Shown: piece by piece, positions 8,985 to 53,455 of the stretch
Layout: every line of letters begins with the position of its first letter
Position numbering within the stretch: position 1 is the first letter of the stretch
Assembly (NCBI GenBank): GCA_009692205.1
Contig: SHZR01000013.1
Span: forward strand, 1-64,000
DNA from: Gemmatimonadota bacterium
GTDB taxonomy: Bacteria > Gemmatimonadota > Gemmatimonadetes > Longimicrobiales > Gaopeijiaceae
Reading direction: 5' to 3'
Length of the DNA stretch: 64,000 nt
The notes under the pieces: generated by a model
The model's database searches: none
Told to the model about the DNA's origin: nothing
What the model saw: the letters and a program-made list of their open reading frames with translations, nothing else
Made by a program: the position numbers and the translations under genes

Positions 8985-9926
8985 ATGGCCAAGGTGCTCG
9001 AGGTGGTTCCCAATTTCTCCGAGGGTCGCGACCTCGCGAAGGTGCGTGGGCTCGTAGACACCGTCTCGGCCGAGGGCGTCGAGGTCCTCGACTGGTCCGC
9101 GGATCCCGATCACCACCGCTCGGTGATCACGTACATCGGTGAGCCCGCTCGCGTGGAGGCCGCGGCCGTGGCGGCGGCGCGCTTCGCGATCGAGCACATC
9201 GATCTGCGGAGCCACGAGGGCGTTCACCCGCGCATCGGAGCTCTGGACGTGCTGCCCTTCGTTCCGCTCGCGGACGCGCGCATGGAAGACGCCGTAGCGT
9301 CGGCTCATCGGGTCGGCCGCAGGATCGGTGAGCTGGGGATTCCGGTCCTCTACTACGGCATGGCGTCGACCTCCCCGGGGCGGGGCCTCTCCGAGCTGCG
9401 CAGGGGCGGTTTCGAGGGACTCCGAGACGGGTTCCCCGCGGGCCTGCTTCCTGACGAGCCGCCGGGGGCCCGGCTGCCGCATCCATCGGCCGGGGTCACG
9501 TGCGTGGGGGCCCGCAACGTGCTGCTCGCGTGGAACGTGTTCGTCGCAGGTGTGGATGTCGCCGACGCTCGGGCCATCGCAGCCAGGATCCGGGAGCGGG
9601 GCGGGGGCTTCAGGGGGCTCCGCGCCTTGGGGATCCACCTTCCTCGCCAAGATCGAGTGCAGATTTCCATGAATCTGGAGGACCCGTCGCGGACCTCCCC
9701 GATCGAGGTGTTCGAGGCGATCGAGCGCGAGGTGATCGCGCGGGGAGGCAGCGTTGTGGAGACCGAAGTCATCGGCATGGTCCCCGACACCCTTGTGTAT
9801 CCGGCGGCGGTAAACAGATTACTCCTTCCTGACCTGGGGCCCTCCCGGGTCCTGTCCCGCCGTGTCGCCCAACACGTCTTGGAGCGCATGAGTGGGCGCA
9901 CGGAGATCCCGGACAGCGCCGAATGA
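8985..9926 (+). CDS. ftcD: glutamate formimidoyltransferase (FtcD N-domain type)
   Basis: The enzyme transfers the formimidoyl group of N-formimidoyl-glutamate to tetrahydrofolate at the end of histidine degradation. The 313 residues correspond to the transferase half of FtcD without the cyclodeaminase domain. Recognisable segments are VLEVVPNFSEGRD at the N-terminus, DPDHHRSVITYIG, and SHEGVHPRIGALDVLPFVP with the active-site His. Other histidine-degradation genes are absent here. The ATG lies six bases after a TAGCTT hexamer and has no Shine-Dalgarno sequence, so a leaderless mRNA is possible. The stop overlaps the next gene's start. Confidence 0.9.
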   Translation: MAKVLEVVPNFSEGRDLAKVRGLVDTVSAEGVEVLDWSADPDHHRSVITYIGEPARVEAAAVAAARFAIEHIDLRSHEGVHPRIGALDVLPFVPLADARMEDAVASAHRVGRRIGELGIPVLYYGMASTSPGRGLSELRRGGFEGLRDGFPAGLLPDEPPGARLPHPSAGVTCVGARNVLLAWNVFVAGVDVADARAIAARIRERGGGFRGLRALGIHLPRQDRVQISMNLEDPSRTSPIEVFEAIEREVIARGGSVVETEVIGMVPDTLVYPAAVNRLLLPDLGPSRVLSRRVAQHVLERMSGRTEIPDSAE

Positions 9927-11590
9927 GCATTGAGTCGCTCAAGCAGCAGGCCCGCCGCCACGAGCAGAACGAAGAGTGGGACAAGGCGCTCGATCAGTAC
10001 CTGAAGGCGATCGAGGAGCTGTCGCAGGACGAGCAGACCGACATCGGGTTGATCAACCGTGTCGGGGACATCTTCGTGCGGGTCGGCAAGCTGGACCAGG
10101 CGGTCAAGTGCTTCGAGCAGGCGGTCGACCTGTACCGAGAGGCGTTCCTCCCGAACAACGCCATCGCGGTCTGCAAGAAGATCATCCGCAGCGCACCGAA
10201 TCGGCACCAGGTCTACCTGAAGATCGGGCAGGTCCGTGCGGAGCAGGGCTTCCTTCCCGACGCGCGTGCGAACTTCCTCACGTACGCCGAGCGCATGATG
10301 AAGGCGGGCGACCTCGACGAGTCGTTCCGCGCCCTCGTGGAGTTCTGCGACCTCGCTCCGGACGACGTCCAGGTGAGGATCACCGTGGCGGATCAGATGG
10401 CCGCCAACAAGCGCACCGCGGAGGCCGTACAGCAGCTTCTGATCGCCCATCGTCAGCTGACGCAGTCCGGCGAGGTCGACCTCGCCAGCGGGGTCGAAAA
10501 GAAGGTGCTCGCTCTCGATCCCAACGCCAACGTTGGGGCCGCTTTCGCGGCGGGCAGCGCCAGCGGGGTGTCCGCCGACGGCGAGATCGAGGCCCAGTTC
10601 GGAGAGATCGAGATCGGAGGAGCCGCGCCGGACGAGGAGGAAGAGCCGACGTTCGCCATCGAGGCCGCCGCCGGTGGTTTGGGTGCCGAGGACGACGCCG
10701 GTGACGAGGGCGAAGAGCTGCCGATGATGAGTTTCGCCGAAGCCGATGAGGCGGCCGAAGAGCAGGATGTGGCCATCGATCTGCCGCTGATGGGCTTCGC
10801 GGAGATCGAGGAGGAGGCCCCCGAACTGCCGATGATCAGCTTCGGCGAAGAGGAGGTAGCGGAGGAGGAAGTCCCCGAGCTGCCGTTGATGACGTTCGAG
10901 CCGGAGCCCCCCCCGTCGGGTGGTCCGTCGCACGCGATCGAGGAGGCCATCGAGGAAGCTGTGGCGGAGCGCGCGCTGCCGCCGAAACCGGCTCCCGCGC
11001 CCGCCAAGCCCGCCGCAGCCCCAGCGAGGCCCGCTGCGGCAGAACCTCCCGCGGCCCCGAATGCCCCCGACACCGGCTACATCGACCTGGGCGCGATGAT
11101 CCTGGGCGGCGGCGATCCGAAGTCGACCCGGTTCAAGGTCGCTTACGAGGAGCCGAGCGGGGACGAGGGCGCCGACTTCGCGAAGATGCTGTCTCAGTTC
11201 AAGGAAAAGGTCTCCGAGAACATCGAGGCGGGTGATGTGCGTGCGCACTACGACCTGGGTACTGCCTACAAGGAGATGGGCCTCCTCGAGGAGGCAGTCG
11301 GCTCGTTCCAGTCGGTGCTGCGTGCGTCTGGCGATCACCTGCCAACGTACGAGATCATGGGCCAGACCTTCCTGGAGATGGGCGAGCCCGAAGCCGCGGT
11401 GAAGACGCTACAGAGAGCGTTGCAGGTGAAGCCTGGCGTCGAGGACGAGTTCGTGGGGATCTACTACTATCTGGCCCGGGCCCACGAGGCACTCGGCCAG
11501 AAGGAATCCGAGCTCGAGTTTTACGACCGCGTGTTCTCCCTCGACATCAATTTCGCCGACGTTACCGAGCGGCTCCGCGGGCTGCGCTGA
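9923..11590 (+). CDS. TPR protein with acidic motif-repeat linker
   Basis: The role is unknown; the product is probably a cytoplasmic scaffold, since no signal peptide or membrane segment is seen. It has 555 residues. TPR helices span about 1-200 (DKALDQYLKAIEEL, DQAVKCFEQAVDLYREA, PNRHQVYLKIGQV). An acidic linker of about 200-400 holds four copies of an LPMMSFAE-like motif and then a Pro/Ala-rich run. The segment YIDLGAMILGG follows, and C-terminal TPRs occupy about 415-555 (AHYDLGTAYKEMGLLEEAV, PEAAVKTLQRALQVKPG). From memory, long TPR proteins with a DLG-type segment before the C-terminal repeats are common in Gemmatimonadota. It is translationally coupled to the formimidoyltransferase gene and precedes the polyprenyl synthase. 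Confidence 0.82.
   Translation: MSIESLKQQARRHEQNEEWDKALDQYLKAIEELSQDEQTDIGLINRVGDIFVRVGKLDQAVKCFEQAVDLYREAFLPNNAIAVCKKIIRSAPNRHQVYLKIGQVRAEQGFLPDARANFLTYAERMMKAGDLDESFRALVEFCDLAPDDVQVRITVADQMAANKRTAEAVQQLLIAHRQLTQSGEVDLASGVEKKVLALDPNANVGAAFAAGSASGVSADGEIEAQFGEIEIGGAAPDEEEEPTFAIEAAAGGLGAEDDAGDEGEELPMMSFAEADEAAEEQDVAIDLPLMGFAEIEEEAPELPMISFGEEEVAEEEVPELPLMTFEPEPPPSGGPSHAIEEAIEEAVAERALPPKPAPAPAKPAAAPARPAAAEPPAAPNAPDTGYIDLGAMILGGGDPKSTRFKVAYEEPSGDEGADFAKMLSQFKEKVSENIEAGDVRAHYDLGTAYKEMGLLEEAVGSFQSVLRASGDHLPTYEIMGQTFLEMGEPEAAVKTLQRALQVKPGVEDEFVGIYYYLARAHEALGQKESELEFYDRVFSLDINFADVTERLRGLR
10715..10900 (+). repeat. four-copy LPxxxFxE motif array in the TPR protein linker
   Basis: Within residues 265-326 the protein carries ELPMMSFAEA, DLPLMGFAEI, ELPMISFGEE and ELPLMTFEPE, spaced 15-22 residues apart by strongly acidic stretches. 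The copies are degenerate at DNA level, so this is a conserved protein motif and not a recent duplication. Confidence 0.8.
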
Positions 11591-13277: not shown

Positions 13278-15113
13278 CTAGAAGATCGGCGGTAGCTGCG
13301 GGGCATCCTCGTCGAGGGGCACGAGGACCTCGGCCCGTCGATCCACGACGCGGGCGCCCGCGCGGAGCGCCGCGATCCACTCTCCGAGTCGCTGCTGCTG
13401 GGTCTGCGACACCGCCTGCGCCCGCTGCTGGGGCAACTGCGCCGACCATGCTGTCGAATCGGCGTCGGTGTGCGCGAGGACCTCGAGCACGTAGTGGTTG
13501 TTCGCGGTCGATACGACATCACTCACTTGTCCGACCGGTAGCCCGAACGAGGCACCGATGACGGCGTTCTGACGTCCGAGGCCCGGAACGAAATCGTTCC
13601 GCGCGAACGGTCCGGCCGTCCTCACCTCCAGGCTCATCTCCGCGGCGACATTGGCGAGCGCGCTTCCCGCGCGCGCGCGATCGACCACCTGCTGGGCCTC
13701 GGTGCGTGCACGCTGGAGTTTCTGCTCGAAGAGCAGGGTGGACTCGATGGAGGCACGGGCCTGCTCGAGCGCCAGCACTCCCGCGGGCTCCGAGGTGACG
13801 AGCTCGAGCGCGTAGAAGGCGGTCGTCGTCTCGAACACGGGGCTCACGTCTCCGGCGGAGGCTTCCTCGAAGAGCCAGTCGGAGCCCTCCGAAACCTGGC
13901 CGGCGCCCGCGAGGAAGGGAAAGTCCTGTGTGATCTCGGCGGTCTGGGTGGTCAGCCCGAACACCGCGGCGGCGCGGTCCAGGGGCATCGCCTCGCCGAG
14001 GTCCTCGAGCGAGTCGGCCTGCGCGAGCAGCTCGAACTCGCTGGAGTCGGTGCGTGCGATCGGGATCAAGATGTGGCGGGCGCGGACGCTGTCGGCCCCC
14101 CAACGCTCCATCACATCGACGATGTGGAAGCCCATGAATGTCTGGACCGGCTCCGCGAGGAGACCCGTCCTGCTCGCGAAGACCACCGAGTCGAACGGCG
14201 CTGGCATGCGACTCTGGCCCTCAGCGAACACGCCCAGGTCGCCTCCGCCTGCGGCGGTCGTCTGGTCCTCTGACTCGGTTCGGGCCAGCTCGGCGAAGTC
14301 CGCGCCGCCGCCGAGTCGCTCGCGCACGGACCGCGCCTGCTCGCGCGACGCCACCGTATCGGCTGCCGTCGGAGTCTTCTCCAACACCACGAACCTCACC
14401 GTGGCACGCGCCGGCATCGCGAATTCGTCCTGATGGTCGCGGTGGTACCGCTCGATCTCACCTGCGTCCGCCGTGAACTCCGAGTCTTCGTAGCGCGTGG
14501 CGGGGTTCAGCGGCACGTAGCGGATCTCGGCGAGCTGATTCTGGTCCCGGTACTGCCGCCAGAGATCGGCGTCGGGGACGTAGATGCCCGAGGAGATCTG
14601 GCGCAGCAGCTTCGTGCGCGGGATGACGTCCCGGTAGTACGCCTCCAAGATCAGGAGCTGGTCGGGCGGGAGGGTGGCCAGGAACGACTGGTAGGCCGCC
14701 AGGTCCAGGCCGCCACTCTCATCCGCGAACTGAGGGGCCAGGTAGTCCGGAGGGCTGAACTGGGCGGCCTCGCTGATCTCCTGGTTCGTCACCGTGATCC
14801 CGCGCCGCCGGAGCTCCTGCGTGATCAGGATCTGCGTGACGACCTCCTCGAACGCCCGGTCCTCGATCTCCGTGTTCTGCTGGGTGCCGATCAACTCTTC
14901 CTGCTGGGCTTGAACCTGCTCGTAGAGCTGCCTGTAGGCCGCCATGTACGAATCGTAGAGGACGGCGTCGCCGTTGACCCTCCCGATCTCTCCCAGGCCG
15001 CCGCTGGTCCGGCCCGTGATGTCCATTCCCCACTGGAACACCATGAGAGCCACAAACGCGAACGCCACCGCCACCATGATCGGCTTCGTGGCCTGCCGCA
15101 TCTGACGCATCAT
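13278..15113 (-). CDS. membrane-anchored peptidyl-prolyl isomerase (PpiD/SurA-like)
   Basis: This is a periplasmic chaperone and parvulin-type prolyl isomerase that probably assists folding of exported and outer-membrane proteins. The product has 611 residues. A cytoplasmic MMRQMRQATKP is followed by one membrane helix (IMVAVAFAFVALMVFQWGM) and a SurA-like N-terminal helical region at about 40-200. A parvulin domain sits at about 215-350 (EFAMPARATVRFVVLE, GGGADFAELART, GGGDLGVF, TFMGFHIVDV). A second, degenerate parvulin-like domain and a helical tail follow. The open frame runs upstream to 15572, but ATG 15113 gives the expected PpiD-type anchor and has GGAG about ten bases upstream. The gene diverges from the next TPR operon. 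Confidence 0.87.
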   Translation of the reverse strand: MMRQMRQATKPIMVAVAFAFVALMVFQWGMDITGRTSGGLGEIGRVNGDAVLYDSYMAAYRQLYEQVQAQQEELIGTQQNTEIEDRAFEEVVTQILITQELRRRGITVTNQEISEAAQFSPPDYLAPQFADESGGLDLAAYQSFLATLPPDQLLILEAYYRDVIPRTKLLRQISSGIYVPDADLWRQYRDQNQLAEIRYVPLNPATRYEDSEFTADAGEIERYHRDHQDEFAMPARATVRFVVLEKTPTAADTVASREQARSVRERLGGGADFAELARTESEDQTTAAGGGDLGVFAEGQSRMPAPFDSVVFASRTGLLAEPVQTFMGFHIVDVMERWGADSVRARHILIPIARTDSSEFELLAQADSLEDLGEAMPLDRAAAVFGLTTQTAEITQDFPFLAGAGQVSEGSDWLFEEASAGDVSPVFETTTAFYALELVTSEPAGVLALEQARASIESTLLFEQKLQRARTEAQQVVDRARAGSALANVAAEMSLEVRTAGPFARNDFVPGLGRQNAVIGASFGLPVGQVSDVVSTANNHYVLEVLAHTDADSTAWSAQLPQQRAQAVSQTQQQRLGEWIAALRAGARVVDRRAEVLVPLDEDAPQLPPIF

Positions 15114-15164
15114 AGGCTTACTTCTCCAGCGACCCCAGGGGGAACCCAACGGAACGAGCCGAGA

Positions 15165-15359: not shown

Positions 15360-17240
15360 GTGACCGAGGCACTGCAGCAGGAAATCCGGACCCTCCGCTC
15401 GCTCCTCGACTCCGAACGCGATCCCGGCGGTCGTGTGTTCGCGCCGCTGGCGGACGCGTACCGGCGGGCCGGCCGCATACCGGACGCGCTCCGGCTGCTG
15501 AACGACGGGCTCGCTAGGCACCCCGATTTCGTGACGGGGCATGTCGTTGCGGCCCAGCTCTATGTCGAGCAAGGGCTGGGCGCGGAAGGGCAGTTCGCTG
15601 CCCGCCGGGCTCTGGAGTTGGATGGCGAAAACGTCGTCGCACTGGGGGCGCTGCTCCGGGTCTTGGAGGAGTCAGGCGACGCCGAGGCCGAGGAGGTCCG
15701 AGACCGCCTGACGGCGCTCGAGCCGGACTTCGGGCGAAAGGCGCTACAGGCCGTTGCCCGCAAGCCCGCTGACGAGTTCCCGTCGCCCGATGCACCCACC
15801 CTGCAGATCAGGGCGCTCGATCGTTCGGTGCCGGCGCCAGAGGCGGTCCCGGAGACCTTCGAGATCGAAGCGTCCCCCTGGGAACCGACCGTTCCGGCCG
15901 GCGCGATCGGCCTCGCGACGATTGCGCCCCTTCCTGCTGCCGCGCTGCCCCTGTCCGCGCTCGCGCCCGAGATCGCTCCGGTCGTGATGGAGTCCAGCTT
16001 CGAGCTGCCCACGCTCGTCCCGGACCTGGCGCCCGCCGGGGACCTGATCTCGCTGGATGCGCTTGCCCCGAGCTTTGGGGGGATCGCAGAGCCCGTCGTC
16101 GAGGAGCCTGTGATGGACCTGGCGGCTCTGGCTCCGGAGCCGGTGGTCGAAGAGCCCCTCATGGACCTCGCCGCGCTCGCGCCGGAGCCGGTCGTCGAGG
16201 AGCCCATGATGGATCTGGCGGCATTGGCTCCCGATCCGGTCGTCGAGGAGCCCGTGATGGATCTGGCGGCATTGGCTCCCGATCCGGTCGTCGAAGAGCC
16301 CGTGATGGATCTGGCGGCGTTGGCGCCGGATCCGGCGGTCGAAGAGCTCGTGATGGACCTCGCGGCTCTGGCTCCCGATCCGGTCGTCGAGGAGCCCGTG
16401 ATGGATCTGGCGGCGTTGGCGCCGGATCCGGCGGTCGAAGAGCCCGTGATGGACCTCGCGGCCCTGGCTCCCGATCCGGTCGTCGAAGAGCCCGTCATGG
16501 ATCTCGCGGCTCTGGCGCCCGAGGCCGAGCCGGTCGTCGACCTGGGGACGCTGGCGCCCGACGAGGAGGTGGTCTCCCTCGATTCGCTCGCGCCGTCGCT
16601 CACGGACACTGAGGAAGCCAGGGCGCCTCAGGCGGTCGAGCCCGCGCGCGCCGCAGAGGAGGCGGTCGACGTCACCCTCCTTTCTCCGGACCGTTCGGAC
16701 GAGATCGTGATCGATCTGGATGCGCTGCGGCCCGAGGGCTCCGTCGCGGAGCCGACGCCAGCCGCAGCCGCGGCCACCGTCGTCGCCCCGCCCAGCTCCG
16801 CCGAGCCAAGGGCCGAGGCCTCCGACCCCGCTCCCGAGGCTCCGGAGCCCGGCGCAGTCGCCGAGTCCGTGGCGGTTCCGGAGGACGAAGGCGAGCCGGT
16901 GTACACGAGGACGCTCGCGGAGCTGTATGCCTCCCAGGGTGCGGTGAAAGAGGCGGTCGGCGTGCTCCGCCGTATCCTCGCCGACAACCCGGCCGACGAG
17001 GAGGTCTCGCGTCGAGTGGCGGAGCTCGAGGCGGGCGGGATCCAGGTCCCGATCGAAGAGGAGGAGGAGGTCGAGACTCTCGCGCGCGACCTCGCGGAGA
17101 GCGGAGCGACCCGTCACGATGTCGAGTCGCCGTTCGCGTGGGCGGATAAGGGGCCGGAGGCGACTGCGGAGGTCGCTGGCCCGACCATTCGCGAGTACTT
17201 CGACGGGCTGCTGCGCTGGGAGCCGCGAGAGGAATCATGA
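15360..17240 (+). CDS. TPR protein with nine tandem 16-residue repeats
   Basis: The function is unknown. The product has 626 residues without a signal peptide. An N-terminal TPR region (about 1-130: DSERDPGGRVFAPLADAYRRA, PDALRLLNDGLARHP) is followed by an acidic, proline-rich linker of about 130-510. The linker contains nine 16-residue repeats at residues 245-388 and looser DLxxLxP motifs on either side. A C-terminal TPR unit lies at about 515-560 (YTRTLAELYASQGAVKEAVGVLRRIL). GTG 15360 has GGAG five bases upstream. The architecture mirrors the TPR protein at 9923-11590: TPRs at both ends and a disordered acidic linker with repeated hydrophobic motifs. It starts the operon with aroQ, whose ATG overlaps its stop. 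Confidence 0.82.
   Translation: MTEALQQEIRTLRSLLDSERDPGGRVFAPLADAYRRAGRIPDALRLLNDGLARHPDFVTGHVVAAQLYVEQGLGAEGQFAARRALELDGENVVALGALLRVLEESGDAEAEEVRDRLTALEPDFGRKALQAVARKPADEFPSPDAPTLQIRALDRSVPAPEAVPETFEIEASPWEPTVPAGAIGLATIAPLPAAALPLSALAPEIAPVVMESSFELPTLVPDLAPAGDLISLDALAPSFGGIAEPVVEEPVMDLAALAPEPVVEEPLMDLAALAPEPVVEEPMMDLAALAPDPVVEEPVMDLAALAPDPVVEEPVMDLAALAPDPAVEELVMDLAALAPDPVVEEPVMDLAALAPDPAVEEPVMDLAALAPDPVVEEPVMDLAALAPEAEPVVDLGTLAPDEEVVSLDSLAPSLTDTEEARAPQAVEPARAAEEAVDVTLLSPDRSDEIVIDLDALRPEGSVAEPTPAAAAATVVAPPSSAEPRAEASDPAPEAPEPGAVAESVAVPEDEGEPVYTRTLAELYASQGAVKEAVGVLRRILADNPADEEVSRRVAELEAGGIQVPIEEEEEVETLARDLAESGATRHDVESPFAWADKGPEATAEVAGPTIREYFDGLLRWEPREES
16092..16523 (+). repeat. nine tandem 48-bp repeats (PVVEEPVMDLAALAPE/D)
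   Basis: Exactly 432 bp consist of nine in-frame 48-bp units, each coding 16 residues of the form P[VA]VEE[PL]xMDLAALAP[ED]. The units differ mainly at synonymous sites and at a few positions (V/L/M, V/A, E/D). Adjacent units share DNA words, which suggests repeated duplication with homogenisation. Every unit keeps the reading frame, so copy number could vary without breaking the protein. Confidence 0.92.
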
Positions 17241-17674
17241 GAATCGCCGTCATTCACGGTCCCAACCTGCGGCTCCTGGGAACTCGCGAGCCTGAGGTCT
17301 ACGGCACCGACACCCTCGACGACGTCAATCGGCGCCTCACCGAGGCGGCCGCTGGCCTGGGCGTCGAAATCGAGACGTTCCAGTCGAACCACGAGGGGGA
17401 GATCCTCGACTTCATCGAGAAGGCCGCGCCGCGTGTGCGCGGATTCCTCATCAACCCGGGCGCGTTCACCCATACGTCGATCGCGCTCCTCGACGCTTTC
17501 TTGGGCGTGAGCCGCCCGTTCGTCGAGGTCCACCTCTCGAACCTGGCCCGGAGGGAGGCGTTCCGGCACCACTCCTACCTCTCCGGGGCCGCGGTGGGCG
17601 TGGTTTATGGCTTCGGGGTGCAGAGCTATCTTCTAGGCCTTCAGGGCCTGGTGGCCCGGCTCGGCGGGCGTTAG
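17237..17674 (+). CDS. aroQ: 3-dehydroquinate dehydratase, type II
   Basis: It catalyses the third step of the shikimate pathway, 3-dehydroquinate to 3-dehydroshikimate. The 145 residues match the dodecameric type II family. Motifs seen are IHGPNLRLLGTREPEVYG with the active-site Tyr22, FQSNHEGEILDFI, INPGAFTHTSIALLDA, and EVHLSNLARREAFRHHSY with the catalytic His region. The ATG overlaps the TPR gene's stop, and efp follows after 42 bp. Confidence 0.96.
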   Translation: MRIAVIHGPNLRLLGTREPEVYGTDTLDDVNRRLTEAAAGLGVEIETFQSNHEGEILDFIEKAAPRVRGFLINPGAFTHTSIALLDAFLGVSRPFVEVHLSNLARREAFRHHSYLSGAAVGVVYGFGVQSYLLGLQGLVARLGGR

Positions 17675-17716
17675 CTCGCAGCCGCGCGCCGAGCGACACC
17701 CCAACCGCAGGGTTTC

Positions 17717-18280
17717 ATGGCCAGCACGGCCGAGTTTCGCAACGGGATGGTCCTCGAGATCGACGGCGGTCTCTGGACGATCGTGTACTTCCAGCACGTG
17801 AAGCCCGGCAAGGGCGGTGCGTTCGTGCGCACCAAACTGAAGAACGTCCGCACGGAGGCCGTTGTAGAGCGCACGTACCGGTCGGGCGAGAAGGTCACCG
17901 ACGTTCGCCTGACTCGGCGACCGGTGACGTACAGCTACACCGACGGCCACCTCTACTACTTCATGGACGAGACCTTCGAACTGGTCCCGATTTCAGGGGA
18001 TCTCCTCGGACAGGAGCAGCTGAAGTACCTGAAGGAGAACATGCCGTGCGAAGGGCTGGTGCACGACGATACGATCATCAGCGTGGAGCTGCCGCAATTC
18101 GTCGAGCTCCAAGTGAAGCGGACCGATCCCGGCCTCAGGGGCGATACCGCGTCCGGTGCTTCCAAGCCCGCCACGCTGGAGACCGGAGCGGTGATCCAAG
18201 TTCCGTTGTTCGTAGAGGAGGGTGACGTCTTGAAGATCGATCGCACCGAGGACAAGTACCTGTCGCGGGTGACCGCATGA
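17717..18280 (+). CDS. efp: translation elongation factor P
   Basis: EF-P relieves ribosome stalling at consecutive prolines. The product has 187 residues in three beta-barrel domains. The tip loop HVKPGKGGAFVRTKLKN carries Lys32 at the position that is modified in many bacteria. Domain III ends VEEGDVLKIDRTEDKYLSR. No epmA or epmB is in the window, so the modification state is unknown. Demand for EF-P is plausible because several proteins here have proline runs (Pal has nine in a row). The stop overlaps accB. Confidence 0.96.
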   Translation: MASTAEFRNGMVLEIDGGLWTIVYFQHVKPGKGGAFVRTKLKNVRTEAVVERTYRSGEKVTDVRLTRRPVTYSYTDGHLYYFMDETFELVPISGDLLGQEQLKYLKENMPCEGLVHDDTIISVELPQFVELQVKRTDPGLRGDTASGASKPATLETGAVIQVPLFVEEGDVLKIDRTEDKYLSRVTA

Positions 18281-18753
18281 TCGACCTCGACTTCATCGAG
18301 CGTTTGATCAAGATCTTCGACGACAGCGGCGTCGATTCCCTCGAGATCGAGCGCGGCGGCACGCGCGTGAAGCTCTCGAAGACGCCACCCGCCGCGGCCG
18401 GTCCGGTGGTGTTGTCGGGTGAGGGGCTGGCACATCGAGGCGCACCGCAGTCCGCGCCGGCGCCCGAGGCTCCCCGCCCAGCCGAGCGAACGCCCCCTCC
18501 GTCGACGCGTGAACTGCTCGAGGTCACGTCTCCGATGGTCGGCACCTTCTACAATGCGCCGGCGCCGGACGCCCCAGCGTACGTCGAGCCGGGCCAGCGG
18601 GTCTCCCCGAGCGACACGCTCTGCATCATCGAAGCCATGAAGCTCATGAATGAGCTCGTGTGCGAGGTCTCCGGGACCATCACCGAGGTCTGCGTACAGA
18701 ACGCGCAGCCGGTCGAGTTCGGTCAGGTCCTGTTCCGCGTCGATCCGCGCTGA
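18277..18753 (+). CDS. accB: biotin carboxyl carrier protein of acetyl-CoA carboxylase
   Basis: AccB carries the biotin that shuttles CO2 between AccC and the carboxyltransferase in fatty-acid synthesis. The product has 158 residues. An N-terminal helix region [18 protein letters not shown] is followed by an Ala/Pro-rich flexible linker (about 40-80) and a biotinyl domain with the EAMKLMNE motif. Lys122 is the predicted biotinylation site. The gene lies between efp (ATGA overlap) and accC, the standard accBC order. Confidence 0.96.
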
Positions 18754-18755
18754 CC

Positions 18756-20111
18756 TTGTTCAAGAAGGTCCTCATCGCCAACCGCGGGGAGATCGCCCTG
18801 CGGATCGTCCGGGCGTGTCACGAGCTCGGCGTCCAAACGGTGGCGGTGTACTCCACGGCCGATCGCGAGTCGCTGCACGTCCGCTTCGCGGACGAGGACG
18901 TCTGCATTGGGCCTCCTGCGGCCAGCGAGAGTTACCTGAACATCCCGCGCATCATCGCCGCGGCCGAGATCACCGGGGCCGAGGCCATCCATCCGGGCTA
19001 CGGGTTCCTGGCCGAGAACGCGGAGTTCAGCGAGATCTGCGGCCGCTCGGGCATCACCTTCATCGGCCCCACGCCCGACCAAATTCGGTCGATGGGCGAC
19101 AAGGCGACCGCCCGGCGCATCATGGCGAAGGCCGGCGTGCCCACGGTCCCGGGCTCGCCCGGCACCATCGATGACATGGAGGAGGCGAAGAGGGCTGCGG
19201 CGGAGATCGGCTATCCGATCATGATCAAGGCCTCCGCCGGCGGCGGAGGGAAGGGCATGAGGATCGCCGAGGACGAGGCGGCGTTCGCGAAGTCGTTCAC
19301 CACCGCGCAGGCGGAGGCGCGAGCCGCGTTCGGCAATGCGGCGGTGTACCTGGAGCGGTGCCTCATACGACCGCGGCACGTCGAGATCCAGGTCTTCGGC
19401 GATCAGCACGGGCGCGTCATGCACTTCGGCGAGCGCGAGTGCTCCATCCAGCGGCGACACCAGAAGCTCGTGGAAGAGGCGCCGTCGCCGGCGCTCACGC
19501 CCCAGCTCCGTGCGGCGATGGGCAAGGCGGCCGTGAAGGCGGCCAAGTCGATCGACTACGTGGGTGCGGGAACGATCGAGTTCCTCCTGGACCACGACCG
19601 CTCGTTCTACTTCATGGAGATGAACACGCGGATCCAGGTGGAGCACCCCGTCACGGAGGTCACAACCGGGATCGACCTCTTGAAGGAGCAGATCCGGGTC
19701 GCCGCGGGCGAGCCGCTCGGTGTGCCGGAGAACGTCACGCACCGTCTGCACGCCATCGAGTTCCGCGTGAACGCCGAGGATCCCGATCGCGGCTTCGCTC
19801 CGGCCCCCGGGAAGATCACGACTTTCCACCCGCCGGGCGGGCCGGGCGTGCGCCTCGACACCCACGTGTACGCGGGGTATACCGTACCGCGGCACTACGA
19901 CTCGCTGATCGCGAAGCTCATCGTGAGCGGCAACACGCGGGACGAGGCCATCGTGCGGGCACGCCACGTGCTGGATCAGTTCATCATCGAGGGCATCCCG
20001 ACCACGCTGCCGTTCCTTCGGCGAATCGTGGACGACGACGCCTTCGTCAGGGGAGACGTGGACACGGGCTTCGTGGCCCGACTGATGGCTGAAACAAGCA
20101 CGCACGCATGA
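18756..20111 (+). CDS. accC: acetyl-CoA carboxylase biotin carboxylase subunit
   Basis: AccC carboxylates the biotin on AccB using ATP and bicarbonate. From the TTG at 18756, two bases after the accB stop, the product is 451 residues and starts [17 protein letters not shown], as in the family. The frame extends to 18660 inside accB, which is unlikely to be used. The ATP-grasp Gly-rich loop is [16 protein letters not shown]; other conserved segments are [30 protein letters not shown], and [18 protein letters not shown]. The stop overlaps comB. Confidence 0.95.
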
Positions 20112-51082: not shown

Positions 51083-51415
51083 ATGGGGTTTCGGGTGTCG
51101 CAGAACGGTGAAGTGACCCTGGTCGAGGTCGAGGGTCAGCTCATCGTCGGGAACCGCCGAGAGCTCAAGCAACAGGTCTTGGATCGACTGCAGGGCGGCG
51201 ACCGCAAGTTCGTCGTCGACTTCGCGAGCACGGGGTACATCGACTCGTCGGGTCTCGGCGTGTTGGTGAGCCTCTCCAAGAAGATCCGCGAGCAGGGAGG
51301 CGAGCTCCGCCTCTCCAGCCTCAATGAGGATCTGCGCACGCTGTTCGAGCTGACCAAGCTCGATACGCTCTTCCGCATCGCGGACACGAAGGAAAAGGCC
51401 CTGGAGGGGTTCTAG
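51083..51415 (+). CDS. STAS-domain anti-anti-sigma factor
   Basis: This is a SpoIIAA/RsbV-like protein. The 110 residues form one STAS domain: VEGQLIVGNRRELKQQV, FVVDFASTGYIDSSGLGVLV with the phosphorylatable Ser in the DSSGLG motif, and LRLSSLNEDLRTLFELTKL. When unphosphorylated it would bind the kinase encoded next and free that kinase's target. It is followed four bases later by the kinase gene. Confidence 0.93.
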   Translation: MGFRVSQNGEVTLVEVEGQLIVGNRRELKQQVLDRLQGGDRKFVVDFASTGYIDSSGLGVLVSLSKKIREQGGELRLSSLNEDLRTLFELTKLDTLFRIADTKEKALEGF

Positions 51416-51419
51416 GAGC

Positions 51420-51878
51420 GTGATCGATCCGCACCAGACCACGGATGGCGAGCTCGTTCTCGAGCTGCCGACCGACATCCGCACGATCGAGCATGCGGTC
51501 CAATACGTCATTGGGCGGTGTCCCTCCTGTGCCGAGGAAGCGCGGCGCCTGAATCTCAACTTCCGTGTGGGACTCACGGAGGCGCTCGCCAACGCGATGC
51601 TCTACGGCAACTCGCGTGATCCCTCGAAGCGCGTGCTGGTCGAGATCGCGTTCCTCCAGGAGTGCATCGAGGCTCGGGTGACGGACCAGGGCGACGGCTT
51701 CGATCCGGCTTCCGTGCCCGATCCCACGACGCCGGAGAACCTGTCGAAGCCCTGCGGGCGTGGCCTCTTCCTCATGCGGAAGCTCTGCGACGAGGTCAAG
51801 TACAACGCTCAGGGCAATCAGGTGACGCTCGTCCTGAGGCTGGAGTCGGGCGGCCTGGAGGGCGGCGTCCAGGCGTGA
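51420..51878 (+). CDS. anti-sigma-type serine kinase (RsbW/SpoIIAB-like)
   Basis: The 152 residues form a GHKL ATPase domain: N-box GLTEALANAMLYGN, DQGDGFDPASVP as the G1 box, and GRGLFLMRKLCDEV as the G2 box. Such kinases phosphorylate the STAS partner and sequester a sigma factor or another target. The GTG start follows the STAS stop by four bases. A CPSC motif near residue 36 is unusual for the family and might allow metal or redox sensing, though this is speculation. No sigma factor gene is adjacent. Confidence 0.9.
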   Translation: MIDPHQTTDGELVLELPTDIRTIEHAVQYVIGRCPSCAEEARRLNLNFRVGLTEALANAMLYGNSRDPSKRVLVEIAFLQECIEARVTDQGDGFDPASVPDPTTPENLSKPCGRGLFLMRKLCDEVKYNAQGNQVTLVLRLESGGLEGGVQA

Positions 51879-53455
51879 GCCCCTCGGGCCGGCTCGTTCT
51901 CGGGGCGCTGCCGGATCCGGTTCTCAGAACGCTGGCGGACTTCGAGCGATCGTTCGGAGCCGTCGTCCGGCTGACGGTGCCGGCGGGTGAGTCGGGGGCC
52001 GCCGACGAAGTCCTCTACGCGACCGGCGGATTCGATTCCACGGGGGCCGAGGCGATGTGCAGGAGCACCTTCACGCCCGTGGGTGAGTCCGCGCTCGAGG
52101 TGCACGTCGTACGCGCCGAGGGGGCTTCCACGTCCGCGGTGTGCTCTGCCCTGACCGCCGCCCTCGGTCTCGCCTTCGAATCCGCGCGCGAGATCCAGTT
52201 CTTCACCGCGGAGCTCTCGGAGCGCTTCGAGGAGATCAGCCTCCTGTACTCCATCAGCGAGACGCTCGGCTCGACGCTCGACATGGACAGCGGCGCCCGC
52301 AAGATCCTCGCTGAGGTGCGAGACGTCCTAGGCGCCAAGCGGGGCTCGCTCTGGGTCTACAAGCGCAAAGACGACCAGCTCCACCTCGCTGCCGCGGTCG
52401 GCGAGGATGGACGCGTGTCCCCGCTCGACCCGGACGATCCGGACGCGATCACGTCCATGGTCTTCCGGGAGGGTCGGGCCATCATCGCGTCGCGGCGTGA
52501 CTCGGCTGCCGAGCGCGACGCGGGCAACGCGGGTGACTCCTTCCTCTCGGTGCCGATCCGGTACTCGCCGGGCTCGGGAGAGTCGAGGACCGTGGGCGTG
52601 ATCAACCTGATCGGCCGCCAGGACGGCAGCCGCTTCAGCACGGCGAACCAGAAGTTGCTCAGCGCCATTGCGTCGCAGGTCGGTGCCGCCATCGAGAACA
52701 ACCGGCTCGTGCAGGAGAGCCTCTCGAAGGAGCGCATGACGCGCGAGATGGAGCTCGCGCACGACCTGCAGATGAAGCTCCTACCCGACGCAGGAAAGTT
52801 CGCGGCCGCCGAGGCCGCCGCGAGGGTTCAACCGACCCAGCAAGTCGGGGGCGACTTCTATCAGCTCTTCGCGCTGCCCGGCGGCAAGGTGGGGGTCATG
52901 CTCGGCGACGTCTCCGAGCACGGGTTTCCCTCCGCGCTCATCATGACGCTGACGATGAGCGCGGCGGGCATTTACGCGCGTGAGGCCGACTCCCCCGCGG
53001 AAGTGCTCCGCAAGCTCGACGACGGGCTCGCCGAGGAACTGGCCTCCACCGAGATGTACCTCACGGCGTTCTACGGAGTCATCGACCCTGCGGCCGGCGT
53101 GCTGGTGTACTCGAACGCGGGGCATCCCCATGCGTTCGTGGTGCGCGCCGACGGCTCGGCAGAGCGCCTTCTCGCCACGGATCCTCCGGTGGGCTTCGCC
53201 GGGCCCGAAGCGTTCAGCGAAGTGAGCGTGCCGTGGCATAGCCCCGACGATCTGCTGCTCTTGTTCACCGACGGACTGCCCGATGCCCTGACGGGTATGG
53301 ACCGCAGTGGGGCCGAGCAGGTCGTGCTCGACGCGGCGACGCGTAACCGGCGCCGTCCGGTGCGCGAGATCGTCGACGCCCTGTTCGAGCTCACCTCCGT
53401 GGGTGAGTCCTCCCCGTTGGGCGACGACCGGACCGCGTTGGTCCTACGACGCTGA
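51875..53455 (+). CDS. GAF-domain PP2C phosphatase (RsbU-like)
   Basis: The phosphatase would dephosphorylate the STAS protein and so activate the switch. The product has 526 residues. An N-terminal region of about 110 residues does not match a family I know. A helix leads into a GAF domain (about 125-285: ISETLGSTLDMDSGARKIL, SFLSVPIRY, VGVINLIGRQDG). A linker helix with MELAHDLQMKLLPD precedes the SpoIIE/PP2C domain, whose metal-binding acids lie in QQVGGDFYQ, GDVSEHGF and LLFTDGLPDAL. It is coupled to the kinase gene by a GTGA overlap. Confidence 0.92.
   Translation: MSPSGRLVLGALPDPVLRTLADFERSFGAVVRLTVPAGESGAADEVLYATGGFDSTGAEAMCRSTFTPVGESALEVHVVRAEGASTSAVCSALTAALGLAFESAREIQFFTAELSERFEEISLLYSISETLGSTLDMDSGARKILAEVRDVLGAKRGSLWVYKRKDDQLHLAAAVGEDGRVSPLDPDDPDAITSMVFREGRAIIASRRDSAAERDAGNAGDSFLSVPIRYSPGSGESRTVGVINLIGRQDGSRFSTANQKLLSAIASQVGAAIENNRLVQESLSKERMTREMELAHDLQMKLLPDAGKFAAAEAAARVQPTQQVGGDFYQLFALPGGKVGVMLGDVSEHGFPSALIMTLTMSAAGIYAREADSPAEVLRKLDDGLAEELASTEMYLTAFYGVIDPAAGVLVYSNAGHPHAFVVRADGSAERLLATDPPVGFAGPEAFSEVSVPWHSPDDLLLLFTDGLPDALTGMDRSGAEQVVLDAATRNRRRPVREIVDALFELTSVGESSPLGDDRTALVLRR

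Follow-up and report, generated by a model that had tools for sequence, protein, structure and literature searches.

A short core re-amplified in the disordered linker of a Gemmatimonadota TPR protein: a possible docking motif of an MglA/SgmX-like polarity module

The window, i.e. the whole 64,000-nucleotide stretch of DNA from a Gemmatimonadota bacterium analysed here, encodes on its forward strand at 15360..17240 a protein of 626 residues that starts with GTG and that we refer to as TPR1. Based on the open reading frame, Pfam TPR matches at both ends and AlphaFold2, TPR1 consists of an N-terminal TPR domain (approximately residues 1-125; 15360..15734, forward strand), a disordered linker with an array of motifs, a C-terminal TPR (approximately residues 507-560; 16878..17039, forward strand) and a short C-terminal helix, REYFDGLLR (residues 610-618; 17187..17213, forward strand). 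The N-terminal domain, which is conserved in orthologues, was predicted with pLDDT values of ~95-98 up to residue 120; the C-terminal TPR is matched by Pfam TPR_14 at residues 517-556 and has pLDDT values of 89-97 in residues 511-560. The C-terminal helix has a block mean pLDDT of 87 in the AlphaFold2 model and recurs as [YF]FxxLLxW in many orthologues. TPR1 belongs to the TPR proteins, in that Pfam TPR_14 and TPR_19 both matched above cut-off and the helix pairs had pLDDT >90. It has no NCBIfam name: the SgmX model NF052243 was not matched at E 0.01, and the scores for PrsT (TIGR02917; 24.2 of 312.2 bits) and GltE (NF033758; 15 of 225 bits) were below the curated cut-offs. Similarly, sequence searches of the PDB returned only generic TPRs.

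The linker contains an array of nine 48-bp units at 16092..16523 (forward strand), each coding for P[VA]VEE[PL][VLM]MDLAALAP[DE], as determined by TRF, unit alignment and codon counts. The first-pass annotation had described nine 48-bp repeats without indels and coding for P[VA]VEE[PL]xMDLAALAP[ED], and both TRF and the unit alignment confirmed this: in the window, TRF gave a period of 48, 8.9 copies and 0% indels at 16095-16522, and cutting 16092-16523 into 48-mers gave exactly nine in-frame units, with MDLAALAP identical in all nine. Diverged copies flank the array. The three named in the first-pass annotation, SLDALAPS, VDLGTLAPD and SLDSLAPS, are all present, and a looser pattern added LPLSALAPE, FELPTLVPD, VDVTLLSPD and IDLDALRPE. 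Thus, a pattern scan placed LPLSALAPE (15945), FELPTLVPD (15999) and ISLDALAPS (16047) before the array at 15945..16073, and VDLGTLAPD (16536), VSLDSLAPS (16572), VDVTLLSPD (16665) and IDLDALRPE (16710) after it at 16536..16736, all on the forward strand. In total, the loose pattern has 16 matches in the whole of TPR1, i.e. the nine array units and the seven diverged flanking copies.

Pairwise comparison of the array units gave a pS of 0.47 and a pN of 0.047, i.e. the copies differ mostly silently. Because the units have diverged silently, with pN a tenth of pS, we conclude from these comparisons that the protein unit of the array is held by purifying selection. The longest exact repeat within the array is only 52 bp, and a collapsed assembly is therefore unlikely. 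The ungapped identity between units is 0.66 within the genome of origin, 0.65 between this genome and its nearest relative G003, and 0.85 among the units of G001. Recent homogenisation or spread of all 14 copies in the genome of origin was considered and set aside: identity within and between the two genomes is similar (0.66 versus 0.65), and the full 14-copy set therefore does not look recently spread.

AlphaFold2 was run on TPR1 as a single chain with 43 sequences. Residues 141-510 had pLDDT values of ~34-52 and no secondary structure, supporting over the repeats the earlier suggestion that the linker is disordered; the linker is also acidic. With a conserved core that recurs along a stretch predicted to be disordered, TPR1 has the sequence features of a multivalent short-linear-motif linker. 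By contrast, the array does not have the features of a solenoid, as it was predicted as coil with pLDDT values of at most ~52. Moreover, no folding or packing was predicted over the repeats in this single-chain model, and neither TPR was confidently occupied.

Matches to TPR1 were found by protein search in 53 of 59 genomes, including the genome of origin. A profile of the N-terminal TPR, run against GTDB species genomes, identified 83 encoding stretches, of which 80 were kept. The source titles of these loci are mostly Gemmatimonadetes or Gemmatimonadota; five are Gammaproteobacteria and one reads only "bacterium". The five loci with Gammaproteobacteria titles (L090, L107, L124, L128 and L130) have the Gemmatimonadota gene order and group accordingly in the tree, and these titles are probably wrong.

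The gene neighbourhood is also conserved. The constant upstream neighbour is a PpiD/SurA-like gene (13281..15116, reverse strand) and the constant downstream neighbours are aroQ, efp, accB and accC (17237..20111, forward strand), as identified from open reading frames and synteny; apart from the TPR and Pfam assignments, gene names come from reading the sequence. Of the 63 loci that extend more than 600 bases beyond TPR1, 61 had AroQ downstream when the window proteins were used as queries. Where flanks are long enough, the recurrent order is TPR2, IspA, TatA, PpiD (reverse), TPR1, AroQ, Efp, AccB and AccC; one clade has other genes between AroQ and AccC, and locus L138 has none of this order. 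A PilT-like ATPase gene, assigned to its family via Pfam on the query, follows TPR1 on the same strand in 24 of these 80 loci, within the aroQ-acc operon and at a distance of 1.6-2.8 kb (L083, L093, L139 and 21 more loci); another lies at L167:7126-8313. At L177 (G012:C13:46500-51000), a 398-residue open reading frame is an in-frame TPR1-AroQ fusion without the motif, in a genome without MglA and TPR2.

We compared 94 homologues, namely those of the 80 loci, TPR1 of the window and a further 13. Of the 80 loci, 15 are truncated by contig ends; these and the non-syntenic L138 were retained in the count. In the Gemmatimonadota orthologues, the conserved part is not the linker but a 9-residue core, hydrophobic-x-[ILV]-x-x-[LI]-[AM]-P-[DE], here also called the LAP motif. 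The pattern [VILMAFTP]-x-[ILVMF]-x-x-[LIFM]-[AM]-P-[DEGSAV] detected 185 instances in 71 of the 94 proteins, compared to 4 for the reversed pattern and an average of 5.7 for shuffles; the pattern was picked after the sequences had been seen, and the controls gauge the excess rather than an independent prediction. The number of copies per protein is 17 in the nearest relative (L060), 14 in TPR1 of the window and one in many others. Contigs of several MAGs end inside the array (the ends of L061, L064, L065 and L135 and the start of L179), and copy numbers there are therefore lower bounds. The spacing of the core is mostly 16 residues in TPR1 of the window, 18 in L005, 13 in L067, 24 and 35 in L069, 14 in L078 and L080, 15 and more in L129, 11 in L011, L028, L070 and L086, and 50 in L065; the period is exactly 11 residues in L011, L028 and most of L070, and the spacing is irregular in L060, L069 and L129. 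The linker of L066 contains approximately eight variant cores without proline, e.g. VVDIDALLAEE.

Neither the position of the core nor the length of the linker is fixed. The C-terminal TPR could be located in 69 of 75 complete proteins, 59 of which contain the motif; the core lies only before this TPR in 31, only after it in 27 and on both sides in one. In complete TPR1 proteins, the distance between the two TPRs ranges from -6 to 527 residues. In a clade of 31 rows, 27 have a lone core of the VDLPLIMP[DE] type in the same register. Five or more copies are present in 12 of 74 complete rows, requiring a minimum of five state changes on a tree built from four proteins. We conclude, from the comparison of sequences, that the core was amplified several times independently in different lineages.

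The first-pass annotation had named a finding that would speak against docking, namely homologues whose linkers are unrelated but alike in length and composition. This is not what we observed: the core is kept, while linker length, spacer and unit length vary, and a sequence-specific motif is therefore favoured over length or charge. The earlier idea of a docking strip thus stands in part, with a core that is conserved, re-amplified and under purifying selection in its favour, whereas the packing onto TPRs that might have accompanied it was not predicted by AlphaFold2.

Outside the TPR1 gene, the core was not found as a recurring element. Scanning the whole genome with a DNA form of the core gave 29 matches compared to 22 in the reversed control, and 11 of the 29 lie in the TPR1 gene; the other 18 were considered as further carriers and rejected, since reading them in frame showed isolated matches in unrelated open reading frames. 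The pattern VPxExL was also rejected, with 11 matches, 11 control matches and none within a repeat linker. The stricter VPI[ED][AS]LAP[DE] matched in 4 of 58 genomes, in all four inside the TPR1 family; the match in G025 is a family member that had not been picked up by the protein search. Finally, within the 695,662 bases of the 80 loci, a stricter core occurred 81 times in the TPR1 gene and not once outside it. We conclude that, in the sequences searched, the core is private to one gene.

The second TPR gene of the recurrent gene order, TPR2 (9923..11590, forward strand), encodes a protein with N- and C-terminal TPRs and a disordered linker that is SgmX-like, both ends matching the SgmX model of NCBIfam. 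Its best match was to this model (NF052243; residues 421-551, E 9.7e-29), followed by MamA (1.6e-16), and a second match to the SgmX model lies at the N terminus; TPR2 is below the SgmX cut-off, with 100.3 of 1800 bits, and only the two ends match. Within TPR2, YIDLGAMIL (11078..11104, forward strand) resembles the TPR1 core; across 39 sequences, D388, L389 and L394 each reach at least 90% conservation, and [FY][VI]DLxA[ML]xL or close variants are present in most TPR2 orthologues. AlphaFold2 gave a short helix for this motif with low confidence, and its likeness to the TPR1 core is suggestive only. The TPR2 linker in the window has its own repeat, [DE]LP[LM][MI]xF, in four copies; three are present in L135.

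Passages in PMC7668184 and PMC11580455 describe that SgmX binds MglA-GTP via its C-terminal TPRs, and parts of these two papers and of PMC7519303 describe that SgmX activates type IV pili; Bd2492 of Bdellovibrio is an SgmX homologue that, according to a portion of PMC3983030, also binds MglA. A clear MglA is encoded in the genome of origin, as are PilB/PilT-like ATPases; the match to PilM is only weak. At G000:C15:72706-73833 in the same genome, the frame of a GspE/PilB-like ATPase is broken by two stop codons. In G035 (L162:5022-5978), one reading frame joins a paralogue of the N-terminal domain of TPR1 to a region with a weak Roadblock/LC7 match (20.9 of 23 bits), and it directly precedes a Roadblock gene and MglA; by coordinates, a similar arrangement appears in other order-level relatives.

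With MglA scored as absent if there was no match at E 1e-20, and TPR2 if there was none at E 1e-10, 11 of 58 genomes were without MglA, nine were without TPR2, eight were without both and four were without just one (p 7e-7, uncorrected for shared descent); gaps in MAGs can mimic gene loss in such counts. In the family to which the genome of origin belongs, the motif was present in 21 of 22 genomes with MglA, TPR2 and a readable TPR1 linker, compared to one of eight with neither MglA nor TPR2 (p 3e-5, also uncorrected for shared descent). G006, G014 and G031, in which the linker was not read, and G002 and G017, in which MglA was not found and TPR2 and the motif are present, were dropped from this count. 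TPR1 is absent by profile in four of the eight genomes without MglA and TPR2 (G018, G026, G029 and G030), where the best profile E-values of 7e-11 to 2e-4 are at the level of ordinary TPRs. Thus, four of the seven genomes without the motif have lost the whole TPR1 gene and give no testimony on the motif alone. In G004 and G028, also without MglA and TPR2, only the C-terminal TPR piece of TPR1 is present. Exceptions occur in both directions: G032 has kept TPR1 with the motif without MglA and TPR2, G027 has MglA and TPR2 without the motif, L087 has the motif without TPR2 at the locus, and G002 and G017 have the motif without a match to MglA. We also considered whether type IV pili alone could be the context, and this idea is weakened by G012, G026, G029 and G030, which carry the ATPases without MglA, TPR2 and the LAP motif; thus, the motif tracks MglA and TPR2 rather than the ATPases.

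We propose that the repeats may represent a short linear docking motif copied in tandem within the disordered linker of TPR1, a two-ended TPR scaffold that occurs across Gemmatimonadota. Each copy would be a weak site for one common partner, and additional copies would increase avidity or allow several partner molecules to bind per scaffold. The partner is placed, more weakly, in the MglA polarity module, because genomes that lack one of the three (the motif, TPR2 or MglA) tend to lack the others as well; the SgmX-like TPR2 or a TPR2-MglA complex would be the most likely candidate. The C-terminal TPR and helix apparently have a separable second function, since they persist in proteins without the N-terminal TPR and motif linker. 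That the core is a sequence-specific docking motif is probable, whereas its link to the MglA/TPR2 module is put forward tentatively. The explanation as a whole, in which a docking motif that serves an MglA/SgmX-like polarity module has been amplified, has in our judgement a little under an even chance of being correct. Direct binding of the motif to TPR2 is unlikely when taken by itself, and it is similarly doubtful that copy number acts as an evolutionary avidity dial, in which repeated multiplication of the LAP core would change the number of SgmX-like/MglA complexes gathered per scaffold, possibly in a polar cluster.

Alternatively, the copies could bind the TPRs of the same or of another TPR1, resulting in a scaffold that is autoinhibited or self-associates head-to-tail. 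The motif and the TPR domains are always on one chain, and the N-terminal TPR and the motif linker are missing together in G004 and G028; however, the single-chain AlphaFold2 model places the repeats on neither TPR with confidence, and self-docking alone leaves the joint absence with MglA and TPR2 unexplained, making this alternative rather unlikely. It is improbable that the linker is a spacer in which length, charge and disorder alone matter and in which the repeats are slippage products without a specific partner. While tandem DNA arrays readily expand and the linker is acidic and predicted to be disordered, the core persists over linker lengths spanning -6 to 527 residues, is also kept as a single copy and re-amplified with other spacers, and has a pN that is a tenth of pS.

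The N-terminal EIDALL helix of FliM docks on CheY. By analogy, the motif might be a short helix docking on the receiver domain of a RomR- or FrzS-like polarity protein, and variants such as DIDALL in L066 would resemble the FliM helix. As described in part of PMC11580455, the pseudo-receiver of FrzS binds SgmX, which counts in favour of such docking; however, no receiver gene was linked to the TPR1 locus and the repeats are not predicted to be helical by AlphaFold2, and we regard this possibility as quite improbable. Finally, folding of the repeats as a regular solenoid or fibre, to which the exact 16-residue period in TPR1 of the window and the exact 11-residue period in L011, L028 and most of L070 could point, is very improbable given the lack of predicted secondary structure, the low pLDDT over the array, the irregular spacing in L060, L069 and L129, and the single copies in many orthologues.

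Linkers with multivalent motifs have precedents. The copies in TPR1 are similar to the NPF motifs read by the EH domains of Eps15 (PMC12370899): in both, a short hydrophobic motif recurs along a linker that is disordered and acidic or polar; the TPR1 motif differs in that it is bacterial, has one core kept phylum-wide and amplified in different units, and has a partner that is only putative. As in-frame coding repeats of variable number, they resemble the intragenic tandem repeats of E. coli tolA and of Legionella described in parts of PMC3477136 and PMC2639597; by contrast, many orthologues contain the TPR1 core just once, and the core has been re-amplified with unrelated spacers. SgmX (MXAN_5766) of Myxococcus xanthus and Bd2492 of Bdellovibrio are likewise cytoplasmic TPR scaffolds, and it is TPR2, not TPR1, that matches the SgmX model; TPR1 lies outside this model at E 0.01 and has a motif-bearing disordered linker, and TPR2 reaches only 100 of 1800 bits. 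In the open-licence literature, we found no bacterial motif linker that is conserved and re-amplified across a phylum, nothing on TPR1, and, searching for MglA together with Gemmatimonadetes, no paper on such a polarity system.

The orthologues provide a natural series from 1 to ~17 copies of a phylum-wide core and thus material for studying the effects of valency. If the link to an MglA/SgmX-like module is correct, TPR1 would be an unstudied polarity scaffold in Gemmatimonadota, and two TPR genes without names, both accompanying aroQ-efp-acc, would become testable partners. Elsewhere in the window, at 51083-53455, a gene for a STAS-domain protein is followed by one for a GAF-SpoIIE phosphatase, which together have the appearance of a partner-switching cluster.
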